Virus record (IMG/VR): IMGVR_UViG_3300019871_000004
Span: 1 to 43,627 of that record
Strand: one strand, 5' to 3'
DNA length: 43,627 bases
From: a virus
Shown here: positions 138 to 43,627 of the stretch, one piece after another
Position numbering within the stretch: position 1 is the stretch's first letter
Layout: each line of letters opens with the position of its first letter
The notes under the pieces: model-generated
Database searches by the model: none
Seen by the model: the letters and a program-made list of their open reading frames with translations, nothing else
What the model was told of the DNA's origin: nothing
Translations under genes and position numbers: made by a program

Positions 138-532
138 AGACGCCTCCGCAGGGGTCGGGGGGGAGCCCTTTGGTCGGGGCAGCTCCCCAGGCGCCTTCAA
201 CGCACCCGGCCCCTGCGCAGTCGTCAGTGGTCGATACCTCGGAGATCGAGATGGCCCTACAGGGCGCCTATGTCGGCATCGAAGCGAGCAAGATGATCGC
301 CGCCTACATGGTCCAGGAACTGGAGCCGAGCCGGACGGTCGAGGCGATCCGGAAGCTCACCGACTTCCTCGATGCACCGGAGCAGAAGAAGACGGTCGAC
401 GCGCTCACCAGACTCACCGAGACCGCCCTTGGCCACGACCTCCCCGTCGACTCCGCCCCGGACGATTCGATCCCCTTCCACCATCCCGAATACCGCGAGC
501 CCGGCTTCGAGCGGCTTCGCTGGAGGTTCTGA
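12..532 (+). CDS. SSB-like protein, C-terminal part (joins 43180-43627)
   Basis: This is the 3' part of the gene that starts at 43180; the reading frame continues exactly through the 126-bp overlap. The joined protein has an N-terminal region of alternating hydrophobic and polar residues compatible with an OB fold, a Gly/Ser/Pro/Gln-rich linker, a helical region and a near-terminal acidic patch (APDDSIPF) like the DDxxPF tip by which single-stranded DNA-binding proteins recruit partners. Unlike normal SSBs, about 15 residues follow that patch (ending RLRWRF). The gene stands first in the rightward replication block. The SSB assignment is inferred from architecture and position, not from a clear family match. 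Confidence 0.5.
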
Positions 533-705
533 TCTCGAAGCACCCTCGGGACTGCACCTGCGACAGGTGCTTCTGGGATCGACAACCGCGCCGCGGCGAC
601 CGCGAGCGCTGGTTCCCGAATGAGGACTTCGACCCGATGGAACGACGTGACGCCCGCGAGGACCGCGAACGCGAGCATGAGCGCGCCGAGGAGAAAGAGA
701 AATGA
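529..705 (+). CDS. Small Cys-rich charged protein, CTG start
   Basis: Unrecognised 58-residue protein. It opens with a CxC-x2-C cluster (CTCDRC, about residues 9-14), then has a long charged helix rich in Arg and Glu, and could bind zinc. The frame has no ATG, GTG or TTG before the Cys cluster. The best start is CTG at 529, overlapping the upstream stop as CTGA, with GGAGG at 522-526. The next in-frame ATG, at 637, would remove the Cys cluster. It ends in an ATGA-type overlap with the next gene. An ATC at 532, spaced better from GGAGG, is an alternative start. Confidence 0.6.
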   Translation: MISKHPRDCTCDRCFWDRQPRRGDRERWFPNEDFDPMERRDAREDREREHERAEEKEK

Positions 706-6239: not shown

Positions 6240-6899
6240 ATGCCTGCCAGGGGGCAGAAGCAGACCGATGAGGCCAAGGCCAAGATCAGCGCGGCCCGAG
6301 TCGCGAACTTCCTCGCCTCGTTGGAGGACCGTCCCGATGCGCCCGAGTTCAAGCGCTGCACCAAGTGCGGCGAGAAGAAGCCGCTCGCCGCGTTCTTCCA
6401 CAGGAAGCGGAAGTTGAAATCCGGGGTCATCGTGATCTACCCGGAGATGCCCTGCCGGGCCTGCAAGACGGCCTACGAGAAAGCCCGGCACGAACGGCTG
6501 GTCGCCGAAGGGAAGTTCGTCCGTCCTCCCTACAGATCGACCCCGCGGAGGCGTCGGCAGAAGCGGGAAAGCATGACGTCGAACCGGCGGGCGAAGGGGA
6601 TCGAGCCGCGCAACTTCCAGATCCCGCCGAAGCCGGACGGCGACACGATGCCGACCCTCGACGCCGTGCCGATCAAACGCCTGATCGAACGCGAGCTGAA
6701 GACGCGAGGTCGAGGAGACATCGCGAGGGCCAGCGGGATCTCCGAACGCCGGATCAACGGCCTGCTCCGCGACGAGTACGACGGCGTGTCGCTCGCCACG
6801 GTCGACGCGATCCTCCACGGCCTGGGGGTGCCCGAGGAGATGCACCTGCTCTACCCGGACCACACGATCGGTTACCACTACATCCTCCCCGAAAAATGA
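6240..6899 (+). CDS. Zinc finger plus helix-turn-helix protein
   Basis: 219 residues. The N-terminal half has CTKCGEKKPLAAFFHRKR and a second CRAC pair near residue 72, the zinc finger seen in recombination endonuclease VII-like and related phage proteins, but the HNH catalytic residues of endonuclease VII are not visible after it. The C-terminal part (about 150-205) contains a helix-turn-helix resembling an XRE fold (RGDIARASGISERRINGLL). It is therefore likely a DNA-binding protein rather than an active nuclease. It precedes the HNH gene with an ATGA overlap. Confidence 0.65.
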   Translation: MPARGQKQTDEAKAKISAARVANFLASLEDRPDAPEFKRCTKCGEKKPLAAFFHRKRKLKSGVIVIYPEMPCRACKTAYEKARHERLVAEGKFVRPPYRSTPRRRRQKRESMTSNRRAKGIEPRNFQIPPKPDGDTMPTLDAVPIKRLIERELKTRGRGDIARASGISERRINGLLRDEYDGVSLATVDAILHGLGVPEEMHLLYPDHTIGYHYILPEK

Positions 6900-7222
6900 G
6901 CATCAGCGCCGCCCATCCCCGCCAGCGGAAGAAGGTCGCGGCCGAGGTCTGCATCGTCTGCGGCCGGGGTCCCGAACAGGAGAAGATCGACCCGGCGCAC
7001 CTGTGGGACCGGAGCCGCGGCGGCTGCGACGACATCGACTGCGTGGTCCCGCTGTGCCGGACCCACCACCGCGAATACGACGAAAAAAAGCTCGATATTC
7101 TTCCGTCGTTGATCGCGGCGAAGATGTGGCACGAGATGGGCCACCCGATCATCCGCCACGAAGTCAGTCCACTCCGGCTCACCCGCCGGCTAACAGGGGA
7201 AGGTCTGCCATCAAAGGTCTGA
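6896..7222 (+). CDS. HNH endonuclease-like protein
   Basis: 108 residues. A zinc-binding frame of C19xxC22 and C49/C54...H58 encloses DPAH (His35) and VVPLCRTHHREYD, the pattern of His-Me-finger nucleases in which the DPAH or DHI histidine is the general base. Small HNH proteins of this size in phages cut DNA during packaging or recombination, or act on Holliday junctions. The protein lies between two DNA-binding genes and the Fic gene rather than next to terL. Its stop TGA forms a CTGA overlap with the next gene. Confidence 0.75.
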   Translation: MSISAAHPRQRKKVAAEVCIVCGRGPEQEKIDPAHLWDRSRGGCDDIDCVVPLCRTHHREYDEKKLDILPSLIAAKMWHEMGHPIIRHEVSPLRLTRRLTGEGLPSKV

Positions 7223-7668
7223 ACGACTTCATCGAGGAAAGCAACCGGATCGAGGGGATCAAACGTCGACCGCTCCGGGAGGAAGTCTCCGCCTACATCG
7301 CCTTCGAGTTTCTGGAGCAGGTCACGATCAAAGACCTGGAGGCCTTTGTCGAGGCCGTCCAGCCCGGCGCCCGGCTGCGGTCACTGCCGGGGATGGACGT
7401 CCGCGTCGGCAGTCACTTCCCGCCGCGCGGTGGCCCGAACATCGTCGTCCAACTTGAACGCATCCTTGGCACCCCGACGATCTCACCGAACGGAGCTTGG
7501 TCGACCCACGTGGAATACGAGACGTTGCACCCCTTCATGGACGGCAACGGCCGGTCAGGTCGCGCGCTCTGGGCCTGGATGCGACTTCGCGAAGATCGCG
7601 ACCCGTTCGCGCTCGGCTTCCTTCACTCGGCGTACTACGAAGCGCTCGACGGGAGTCGCCACGGGTAA
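7219..7668 (+). CDS. Fic-domain AMPylase, class II-like, CTG start
   Basis: 149 residues. The catalytic Fic motif is complete (HPFMDGNGRSGR, residues 104-115), so it should transfer AMP or another nucleotide group from a nucleotide to a target hydroxyl. Near the N terminus, S8NRIEG13 fits the inhibitory (S/T)xxxE(G/N) motif that blocks ATP binding in self-inhibited class II Fic proteins. No ATG, GTG or TTG lies in frame near this N terminus; CTG at 7219 overlaps the upstream TGA as CTGA and gives MNDFIEESN, a normal Fic beginning. The target is unknown. Possible roles are host takeover, phage exclusion during lysogeny or toxin maintenance. Confidence 0.85.
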   Translation: MNDFIEESNRIEGIKRRPLREEVSAYIAFEFLEQVTIKDLEAFVEAVQPGARLRSLPGMDVRVGSHFPPRGGPNIVVQLERILGTPTISPNGAWSTHVEYETLHPFMDGNGRSGRALWAWMRLREDRDPFALGFLHSAYYEALDGSRHG

Positions 7669-7831
7669 GCGCGAACAGGACGCGCCGCAAGGCGTCCACG
7701 TCATCTTCGTCTACTACGTCCCGAGGAGCGAGTTGGAAGACGTGTGGGATAACCCCGAAGAACTGGAAAACGCAGCGGTCGACGTCGCGACCCTGGGCCG
7801 CCCGAACGTCGTCGTGGAGGTGGAGAAATGA
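7661..7831 (+). CDS. Small protein after Fic, non-canonical start
   Basis: About 56 residues, with a beta-rich body (VHVIFVYYVPRSELEDVW) and a C terminus VVVEVEK. The frame is open but has no ATG, GTG or TTG before the conserved-looking body; ACG at 7661, five bases after GGGAG, is the best placed codon, and TTG near 7733 would remove half the protein. A frameshift from the Fic gene is the alternative. The position directly after Fic suggests a modulator or antitoxin, which is inference only. Confidence 0.4.
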   Translation, partial: TGKREQDAPQGVHVIFVYYVPRSELEDVWDNPEELENAAVDVATLGRPNVVVEVEK

Positions 7832-9662: not shown

Positions 9663-10063
9663 GGGCGACTGCGCATCGCATGGGGCTTTGGACGGTACCC
9701 CGGTAAAGGATCCCGGACCTTCGGATACCGCATGAAATCCGGATGGGATCATCAAGGGGCGTCATGACATTGCCCTCAGAACGCCTTACAGAGCGCCGGA
9801 AATCCCTGCTAGCCTGCATTTGCGTTTGTTTAGTGGACTGACGCACCCGCGGCGTCGATCTCCTCCAGAGGTCGGCGCCGCTTCAGCGAGGGCGAGCCGG
9901 GCAAGAAAAAAGCCCCCCGGATCCCGAGAGGCTTTTTTCAAATCGCGGTCTGTACTTGTGCCCTACCGTCGCGCGGCGTCAAATTTCCGGTTGTGGCGGA
10001 GCGAGCTCCACGCGAGGAATGCCCAGAAACCGCCCATCGTGGCGATGATGATCAGCGCGCCGA
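9663..10063. other. 400-bp intergenic region
   Basis: No convincing gene. It holds a CAGTCCACTA box (9831-9842) followed on the minus strand by AACGCAAATG, similar to the box-plus-start region of the gene at 10628, and a bidirectional terminator at 9905-9938. The minus-strand frame after the box lacks a ribosome site and runs into the 9153-9662 gene, so it may be the remnant of a lost cassette. Confidence 0.5.
9905..9938. terminator. Bidirectional intrinsic terminator
   Basis: A stable GC hairpin (AGCC... GGCT, with inner CGG/CCG) is flanked by A6 on the left and T6 on the right, so it can stop transcription from both directions. It separates the plus-strand gene ending at 9662 from the minus-strand cluster ending at 10064. 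Confidence 0.85.
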
Positions 10064-27685: not shown

Positions 27686-28203
27686 TGGAAGACCGGTATG
27701 GGTTGGTGCCTCCGGAGGTCAAGGCCCGTGTCGAGGCCGAGGAGTACAACGATCGCCAGGCGAGGGCGGGACTGGCCATATCCACCGCCCTGAAGGCGCT
27801 GGACCCCGACCTGGACCTGGTCTTCGTCCGTCACGACGCCGCCCCCGAGAGCCTGCCGCCGGGGGCGGCGCCGGGGCGCTGGCACGTCCGCAACAAAGGG
27901 GCGACGCTCCTGCCGACGTTCACCCCGATCGAGACGCCGGAGGGCAAGTACAGGGAACCCGACTCGGGGATCCTCCACGAATACGCGTCCAGGGACATGC
28001 GCAAGGCCGACGTCAGGGCCGCGACCTTCGACCGCCCCCACCGTGAAAAGCGGGAGCGCGACCGGAAGAAGGCCCTGGAGACCGAGCAGCGGCGCGACGA
28101 ACTCGCCGCCGACCTGAAGACCGGCCGCCGGATCCCCGGTGACCGGGGGATGCACAGACGACTCTGGGACCGAGGGGGTGCGCCATCAACACCGAAGAAC
28201 TGA
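27685..28203 (+). CDS. Charged phage protein, unknown
   Basis: 172 residues, rich in Arg, Glu, Asp. It begins MEDRYGLVPPEVKARVEAEE and ends with a basic region. Proteins of this size between coat and adaptor are often head-tail connection or assembly factors. It starts at 27685, overlapping the previous stop by one base, and its own stop forms a CTGA overlap with the adaptor gene. Confidence 0.65.
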   Translation: MEDRYGLVPPEVKARVEAEEYNDRQARAGLAISTALKALDPDLDLVFVRHDAAPESLPPGAAPGRWHVRNKGATLLPTFTPIETPEGKYREPDSGILHEYASRDMRKADVRAATFDRPHREKRERDRKKALETEQRRDELAADLKTGRRIPGDRGMHRRLWDRGGAPSTPKN

Positions 28204-28790
28204 CCGCGGAATTCCTCGGGCGTGGCTTCGACTACATGTCGAACGAAAAGGCCCTTCAGTATCTGAACGCCAGCTACCAGGTCGACATCTGCGAAGCGGA
28301 GGACTGGCCGTTCCTGGCCGAAGAAGTCAGCGGCACCGCGCCCCTGGTCATCTCCTCGATGCGTTCCCTGGAGTACGTGATCGACACGACCTCCGAACGG
28401 AAGCTGGTCGCGATCGACCGGCGGAACCTGACCGACGACTTCACGGTCAAATTCACCACCCCGGGGCCGCCGCTCTTCTACTTCATCGACGGCGAAGCCG
28501 AAATCGAAGTCTTCCCCGCCAACACGACCGACATCCTCACGGCGCGTTACTACCGGACCCCCGTCAGGCTGGCCGGCGCAGGGATCCCGGTCATCCCGGA
28601 ACGCTTCCACTCGCTGATCATCGACGGCGCCGTCGCCAGGGCCTACGAGGACAGTGACGACTACGAACTGGCCCAGAACGCCAACACCAAATTCACCGAA
28701 CGACTCCAGAAGATGACCAGCGCACTGATGGAAAAGCTCCGCGACGGTCCCGACGGATACGTCGCCATCCTCGACCCCTACGTGCTCTAG
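28200..28790 (+). CDS. Tail tubular A-like adaptor, CTG start
   Basis: 196 residues, the size of T7 gp11. The pattern FLGRGFDYMSNEKALQYLNA, then CEAEDWPFL and a beta-rich middle matches phage adaptor proteins that ring the portal and carry the nozzle. No ATG, GTG or TTG precedes this conserved N terminus; CTG at 28200 overlaps the upstream TGA as CTGA and gives MTAEFLGRG. ATG at 28236 would cut off the first 12 residues. An upstream ATC at 28185 after GAGGGGG is another possibility. Confidence 0.75.
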   Translation: MTAEFLGRGFDYMSNEKALQYLNASYQVDICEAEDWPFLAEEVSGTAPLVISSMRSLEYVIDTTSERKLVAIDRRNLTDDFTVKFTTPGPPLFYFIDGEAEIEVFPANTTDILTARYYRTPVRLAGAGIPVIPERFHSLIIDGAVARAYEDSDDYELAQNANTKFTERLQKMTSALMEKLRDGPDGYVAILDPYVL

Positions 28791-39769: not shown

Positions 39770-39936
39770 AAGAGCAGGAGAAACCCAAAAAGCAGATCGT
39801 GATCGTCTACGACTCGCCGAAGGGGAAAGGCATCCCGTTCGACACGGCCTACGAGGACGCCCAGGTGGTCGACGCGCTGGTCCGCTGCAAGGCCCAGAAG
39901 GGCGAGCGCTGTAACGCCCGGAGCGCCGCCGCCTGA
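39766..39936 (+). CDS. Small basic protein, unknown
   Basis: 56 residues (MKEQEKPKKQIVIVYDSPKG) with IVIVYD as a strand and two Cys near the end (VRCKAQKGERCNARS). It starts in an ATGA overlap with the holin. Its stop forms a CTGA overlap with the Hjc-like gene. A longer in-frame version from 39559 would overlap the endolysin and was rejected. Confidence 0.55.
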   Translation: MKEQEKPKKQIVIVYDSPKGKGIPFDTAYEDAQVVDALVRCKAQKGERCNARSAAA

Positions 39937-40253
39937 GCAGGGGCATCCAGCGCGAGCGCCAGGTCCGCGGCGTCCTGGAGATCGAGGGATGGTGGACCTG
40001 TAGGGCCGCGGGCTCCCTCGGGGACGCAGACGTGATCGCCGGGAAGGCGGGTCACACCCCGCGGCTGATCGAGGTCAAGTCGACGATCCACCCGTTCGAC
40101 CACTTCGGCCCCGCCGACCGCGCGGAGCTACTGGCGGCCGGTGAGAAGACCGGCTGGGACGTCGAGCTGGCGTGGTGGCCGAAGCGCGGCAAACTGAAGT
40201 TCATTCCCCCAGCTCAGTGGCCTTCTTCTTCGCGTTCCGGATCCTCGCCTTGA
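39933..40253 (+). CDS. Hjc/PDDEXK-like nuclease, CTG start
   Basis: 106 residues. RGIQRERQV with Glu8, then RAAGSLGDADVIA (Asp31/Asp33) and LIEVKST (Glu47, Lys49) form the catalytic PDDEXK core of archaeal Hjc-type resolvases and RecB-like nucleases; HFGPADRAELLAAG follows in the family order. It may resolve junctions before packaging. No ATG, GTG or TTG exists upstream of the motif; CTG at 39933 overlaps the previous TGA as CTGA, nine bases after GGAG. GTG at 40032 would delete the first catalytic Glu and Asp residues. It is the last gene of the late operon. Confidence 0.8.
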   Translation: MSRGIQRERQVRGVLEIEGWWTCRAAGSLGDADVIAGKAGHTPRLIEVKSTIHPFDHFGPADRAELLAAGEKTGWDVELAWWPKRGKLKFIPPAQWPSSSRSGSSP

Positions 40254-43183: not shown

Positions 43184-43627
43184 GCCAGGAGTACGCCATC
43201 ACCACGGTCGGCCCTCCCCGGCCGTGGCAGAACAAGCGTGGCGATCAGATGGTCTCCTACGACGTCGGCATCGAGGGCGTCTACGGCACTGTCGAGTGGG
43301 CGCGGAAACCCGACTCCGACCCGCCCGTCGCGGGCTCGACCACGCCGCTCTCGAACATCGAAGACACGACGTACGGGAAGAAGCTGAAAGTCGACTGGGA
43401 CGCGGTCAAAGCCGGAGGGTCGGGAGGCCCCCCGGCGACCAGCTCGGCGGGCTCGGCCAACTTCGGCGGCGACTATCAGCGCCCGCTCCGCCCCGAGGTC
43501 CAGCGGGCGATCCAGCGCCAGCACTCCCAGGAGATGGCGCTTCGCTTCCTCGCCCTCAACAGGCAGTCGCCGTCTTACGAGGACGTCTTCAAGGCCGCCG
43601 ACGCCTTCGACGCCGACATCAACCGCC
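43180..43627 (+). CDS. SSB-like protein, N-terminal part (continues at 138-532)
   Basis: ATG at 43180 overlaps the previous stop. The first 75 residues are beta-rich (YAITTVGPPRPWQNKRGDQM, then SYDVGIEGVYGTVEWARKPD and YGKKLKVDW), as in an OB fold; a Gly/Ser linker and a helical part follow (RPEVQRAIQRQHSQ). The frame reaches the end of the window and continues at bases 138-532 after circular closure, giving about 290 residues in all. The single-strand-binding assignment rests on this plan and on the acidic patch near the C terminus. Confidence 0.5.
   Translation, partial: MSQEYAITTVGPPRPWQNKRGDQMVSYDVGIEGVYGTVEWARKPDSDPPVAGSTTPLSNIEDTTYGKKLKVDWDAVKAGGSGGPPATSSAGSANFGGDYQRPLRPEVQRAIQRQHSQEMALRFLALNRQSPSYEDVFKAADAFDADINR
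43502..43627. repeat. Terminal direct repeat, copy 2
   Basis: Identical to bases 12-137. It lies inside the SSB-like gene that begins at 43180 and continues at 138-532 after circular closure. Confidence 0.9.

Follow-up and report, generated by a model that had tools for sequence, protein, structure and literature searches.

The window, i.e., the whole stretch of 43,627 bases analysed here, is a virus record with genes for an integrase, a terminase, a portal, a major head protein and an SU10-type adaptor. Its final ~125 bases (about 43503-43627) recur at positions 13-137, the first 12 bases differing, and gene order runs on across the join between the window's end and start in G001 (IMGVR_UViG_3300019889_000023; 45,968 bases), a syntenic relative. 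The record is probably a whole genome, circularly permuted and about 43.5 kb long. The window was compared gene by gene with G001, which is the same contig as locus L001 and is covered in full by loci L042-L044; the terminases of the two phages are 79% identical. A second copy of the window phage was not found, and the evidence comes from one assembled contig. To find a host, bacterial and archaeal genomes were searched using profiles of the capsid and the terminase, which gave no match, and the best-scoring terminase matches among named phages were those of Arthrobacter phages, which at ~31% identity are too distant for naming a host.

Overlaps between a TGA stop and the following gene are common in the window, where ATGA, GTGA and TTGA contexts account for 14, 8 and 3 of the 42 TGA stops, respectively. 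The initial annotation had drawn attention to these contexts and to four CTGA junctions (at 529, 7219, 28200 and 39933), and had proposed that the CTG serves as the start codon of the downstream frame in each case. The four junctions are present and their TGA overlaps are real. Moreover, none of the four frames offers a plausible standard start codon (ATG, GTG or TTG) where the conserved N terminus lies, in-frame GTGs being found further upstream in the case of Fic. The features concerned are listed in Table 1, together with a gene starting at ACG 7661, a case that was absent from the initial annotation.

Table 1. Probable near-cognate starts, previously proposed CTG codons and associated features in the window.
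Feature	Coordinates	Strand	Remarks
Cys-rich 57-residue protein	532..705	+	probable start ATC 532; TGATC junction, 1-nt overlap with stop 530-532
Shine-Dalgarno GGAGG for ATC 532	522..526	+	from sequence and spacing
Fic-domain protein, start ATC 7210	7210..7668	+	13-nt overlap with upstream HNH-like gene; Pfam Fic 9e-7
CTG proposed earlier, internal leucine 4 of Fic	7219..7221	+	CTC in G001, whose GTG is 3 codons upstream
56-residue protein, start ACG 7661	7661..7831	+	8-nt overlap with Fic; ATG in same G001 column
SU10-type head-tail adaptor, start ATC 28185	28185..28790	+	19-nt overlap with upstream gene; Pfam SU10_adaptor 3e-16
CTG proposed earlier, internal leucine 6 of adaptor	28200..28202	+	leucine in relatives starting 5 codons upstream
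Hjc-like nuclease, start CTG 39933	39933..40253	+	4-nt CTGA overlap; Pfam Hjc 2.7e-6

For the head-tail adaptor, the column of ATC 28185 is occupied by ATG in L001/G001, L002, L047 and L049 and by GTG in L048 (five relatives), the start position being ambiguous in a further relative, L046; a search for adaptor N-termini in additional relatives beyond those aligned returned only G001. The gene opens with ATC AAC ACC GAA GAA CTG in the window and with ATG AAC TCT GAA GAA CTG in G001. The energy of the duplex with the anti-Shine-Dalgarno sequence is -14.5 at ATC 28185, the strongest among all the starts scored, and +0.1 at CTG 28200, which has no Shine-Dalgarno sequence. If translation began at ATG 28236, the standard codon that comes next, 17 residues common to the relatives would be lost. 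The frame has a coding score of 102 and is predicted from these alignments to begin at ATC 28185. As a virion structural protein, the adaptor is expected to be essential.

The column of CTG 39933, at the start of the Hjc-like gene, contains GTG in G001 and ATG in L039. The start junction takes the form NTGA in four phages, i.e., CTGA in the window, GTGA in G001, ATGA in L039 and TTGA in L040, whose gene is two codons longer. The gene opens with CTG AGC AGG GGC ATC CAG in the window, and the next standard codon, GTG 40032, would lead to the loss of 33 nuclease-domain residues. The duplex energy at CTG 39933 is only average (-5.8). Overall, the comparison with relatives makes the CTG a well-supported candidate start for this gene. 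It could be argued that the near-cognate genes have no start of their own and that each is joined to its upstream gene as a fusion protein, by a frameshift where that gene ends, since all four of the genes with aligned relatives overlap their upstream neighbour in a different frame. However, in relatives these genes have their own ATG or GTG starts at these places, the Hjc-like gene follows different upstream genes in L039 and L040, and a frameshift site would be required in every one of four unrelated upstream genes, which makes such fusions barely credible.

Between positions 6896 and 7831, an HNH-like gene, the Fic gene and the gene of the 56-residue protein form an overlapping trio, which is kept in G001; the latter two are near-cognate in the window. 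The beginning of Fic reads ATC AAA GGT CTG AAC GAC in the window and GTG AAC GGG CTC AAC GAC in G001, and in more distant homologues of Fic the start lies no more than a few codons away from the ATC 7210 column. The duplex energy is -8.6 at ATC 7210 and -3.8 at CTG 7219, where the Shine-Dalgarno spacing is 1 nt. In the Fic frame, GTGs occur upstream at 7003, 7054 and 7126, but in G001 a stop separates them from the Fic start. Fic is accordingly aligned, and predicted, to begin at ATC 7210 and not at CTG 7219. The small gene that follows reads ACG GGT AAG CGC in the window and ATG GCC AAA CGT in G001, the two proteins being 56% identical. A GGAG is found 5 nt upstream of ACG 7661, with a duplex energy of -6.9, and the coding score of the frame is 22.8. 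The frame is devoid of a nearby standard start, and a stop in G001 separates an upstream TTG from the start. The search for further relatives of this gene returned only G001, so that the ACG start rests on one relative.

The reading in which the CTG is the start in all four frames, used by newly terminated ribosomes that reinitiate, is consistent with the TGA overlaps and correct for 39933, where the CTG is the start that aligns with those of homologues. At 7219 and 28200, in contrast, the relatives of Fic and of the adaptor start at the ATC column and the CTG is an internal leucine codon. The duplex energies at these two CTGs also speak against it, as does the Shine-Dalgarno spacing, which is 2 nt at 529 and 1 nt at 7219. 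Furthermore, the recurrence of the junction had been taken as a signal of CTG use, yet CTGA is the commonest TGA context of the window (17 of 42 TGA stops), because in G+C-rich genes the final codon frequently has C as its third base, and nine of the 17 have a downstream open frame of at least 50 codons. Chance CTGA junctions, which the initial annotation had itself named as an alternative, fit 28200 and 7219 well, where a normal leucine codon happens to run into the TGA of the gene before. A CTG start shared by all four genes is consequently highly improbable. What holds from the earlier proposal is its core idea, non-standard starts at stop-coupled junctions, while the repeated CTG start does not, homology backing a single CTG (39933). 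The ATC codons that had been mentioned as alternatives are supported by homologues at 7210 and 28185, and ATC 532 is the likelier choice at the remaining junction on account of its Shine-Dalgarno spacing.

At that junction, the Cys-rich protein has no homologue in the viral contigs or named phages searched. The GGAGG is separated from ATC 532 by 5 nt and from CTG 529 by 2 nt. Among standard starts whose core is GGAGG, AGGAG or GGAG, the spacing ranges from 4 to 12 nt and is never below 4, which favors ATC 532 over CTG 529. The duplex energies are -10.5 and -5.2, respectively. ATC 532 is thus a probable fifth near-cognate start. The coding score of the frame is about 0, yet it is the best of the three frames, and it is not certain that 532..705 is a gene. 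Its predicted product contains a C-x-C-x-x-C motif similar to that of the proteins encoded at 1252-1485 and 1482-1700, two adjacent small proteins with repeated GCRC/CRC-x-x-C motifs that match PHROG families found around HTH and HNH proteins.

The near-cognate starts amount to four, perhaps five, among about 50 window genes with homologues, and the closest relative, G001, has none. ATC 7210, ACG 7661, ATC 28185 and CTG 39933 are each one base off ATG and are neither GTG nor TTG. In relatives (G001 and others), the same columns contain ATG or GTG, i.e., the position of the start is conserved while the start codon itself varies. Codons one base from ATG represent 14.8% of coding codons, and finding four of four by chance has a probability of ~5e-4. 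Standard alternatives would delete conserved residues (adaptor and Hjc-like protein) or are themselves not conserved (Fic and ACG gene). All five starts overlap the stop of the adjoining upstream gene (Table 1), and a Shine-Dalgarno match is present 5 to 9 nt upstream of each of them, at a usable spacing. Taken from sequence comparison, it is probable that at least four window genes start at near-cognate codons (ATC 7210, ACG 7661, ATC 28185 and CTG 39933) in a Shine-Dalgarno-driven and stop-coupled manner. The loss of start codons from genes that are decaying or switched off was also considered, as three of the products, namely Fic, the 56-residue protein and the Hjc-like nuclease, may be dispensable and G001 retains standard starts. 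However, the adaptor should be essential, the frames are intact with coding scores of 18.5 to 102, and each lost start would need to land on a near-cognate codon, so that decay is an improbable explanation.

Duplex energies at the near-cognate starts range from -14.5 to -5.8, the medians being -6.3 at standard starts and -3.1 in the background. As a set of five, the near-cognate starts slightly exceed the standard ones in strength (p = 0.04), but the four that have homologues do not do so by themselves (p = 0.12). In the proposed mechanism, ribosomes that have completed the upstream gene, or subunits retained at the Shine-Dalgarno sequence, would let fMet-tRNA pair with the mismatched start codon, leading to a reduced but sufficient amount of protein. 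The near-cognate codons would thereby initiate with Met as the first residue, at a low output and helped by coupling to the upstream stop; the predicted N-terminal peptides at the proposed starts include Met-NTEELTAEFLGR and Met-SRGIQR. Coupling and plain Shine-Dalgarno initiation are inseparable by sequence, because most neighbouring genes of the window overlap. Such starts probably lower expression, which may be tolerable for the adaptor (few copies per particle), the Fic protein and the nuclease. It is equally possible that the codons result from neutral drift and are kept viable by adequate Shine-Dalgarno sites.

A mechanical screen of N-terminal starts was applied to 318 genes from 42 phage loci. 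It flagged three window genes, and the ACG gene was found by hand. A version of the screen using whole alignments instead of N termini mostly gave internal false flags, and the N-terminal screen alone was used; flags in L025 and L049 were judged false, with one homologue each and positions deep inside long frames. Outside the window, a single clear case emerged, namely an ATA as the start of a Fic gene. It is present in L018 and L028, which are the same virus, represented by two contigs 99.99% identical from different metagenomes. In L028 at about 4995, and at the matching place in L018, Fic apparently starts from an ATA located 8 nt after a GGAGG, in an unrelated A+T-rich phage. Near-cognate starts are more frequent in the window (3/49) than in the other loci (1/about 251, p = 0.015), and the comparison of 4/about 50 in the window with 0/46 in G001 gives p = 0.07; given the small numbers and the fact that the loci were gathered starting from the window, this enrichment is an indication and not a proof.

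Another possibility is that ATG or GTG codons were turned into ATC, ACG and CTG by errors in sequencing or assembly, or by the assembler's choice of minor variants, the window phage being known from a single contig and relatives carrying ATG or GTG at these places. This would require four independent errors in start codons while the genes with homologues remain open and in frame. In addition, the near-cognate ATA recurs in L018 and L028, which are independent assemblies. Errors are hence a very improbable source of these codons. Genuine near-cognate initiation could reflect a relaxed start selection in the phage or its host, in which near-cognate codons with a Shine-Dalgarno sequence would be regular starts, an essential structural gene included. 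This extension is considered unlikely. Neither a phage tRNA nor an Rfam RNA match is present in the window, no translation factor was identified among the 30 window proteins scanned with Pfam, some genes being without a match, and no phage-encoded tRNA or translation factor that would change start selection was found.

All the near-cognate start codons of the window (532, 7210, 7661, 28185 and 39933) contain a C, being ATC, ACG or CTG, which is possibly only a reflection of G+C bias. C-to-U editing was considered for this reason and rejected, as ATC would become ATT and not ATG.

The overlaps described above have the geometry of the NTGA stop-start coupling of phage and bacterial genes, to which the Hjc-like start conforms in four phages. 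The window differs in that N is a C, hence the CTG start, and in that its other overlaps are of 1, 8, 13 and 19 nt. In the bacterium Deinococcus deserti, Baudet in 2010 reportedly described non-canonical starts, with ATC and CTG said to be among the codons. Similar to the window, several non-canonical initiation codons thus occur in one organism, with the difference that D. deserti was studied by N-terminal proteomics while the window belongs to a phage known here from sequence only. In Staphylococcus aureus, AUU and AUA starts with an extended Shine-Dalgarno sequence yield roughly a tenth of the expression obtained with AUG (PMC13009471), which provides a bacterial precedent for the near-cognate reading. 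The genes infC, cvfC1 and ccpN resemble those of the window by their near-cognate codon, strong Shine-Dalgarno sequence and expected reduction in expression, and one gene of the S. aureus set encodes a small protein of 61 residues (PMC13009471). However, the S. aureus cases are a few chromosomal genes, mostly regulators, in which the near-cognate codon is conserved (PMC13009471), whereas the window is that of a phage using ATC, ACG and CTG where relatives have ATG or GTG, in genes that overlap an upstream stop.

A mycobacterial reporter study found that ATC with a Shine-Dalgarno sequence is weak but above background and that CTG is not enriched (PMC4633059), a result that counts against the near-cognate reading. 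The wild-type initiator tRNA of E. coli likewise initiates poorly on CUG (PMC11497404). A report on reinitiation at non-canonical codons (PMC4648390) was set aside, as it deals with eukaryotic scanning ribosomes. No report of such near-cognate starts in a phage was found in the literature searched, the coverage of which was partial. Near-cognate starts are already known in bacteria, and the occurrence of several in one phage, including an ACG, is unusual. The novelty lies in how many of them a single phage genome contains, in the combination of ATC with ACG and CTG, and in the fact that a structural gene is among the genes concerned.

A gene caller that accepts only ATG, GTG and TTG as starts would miss or shorten the adaptor, Fic, the resolvase-like nuclease and the small protein. 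Should some phages use near-cognate starts at such a frequency, viral databases would contain systematic errors in start sites and small genes, and phages would provide a natural test of how strict ribosomes are in the choice of the start codon. It is worth noting that a simple screen against relatives detects such starts and that it also revealed the likely ATA start in an unrelated phage. As a separate observation on the window, the element tagtggact (+ strand; agtccacta on the minus strand) occurs near 9833, 10645, 11186, 11688 and 12280, ahead of several small genes of the minus strand, and is perhaps a shared promoter or operator.
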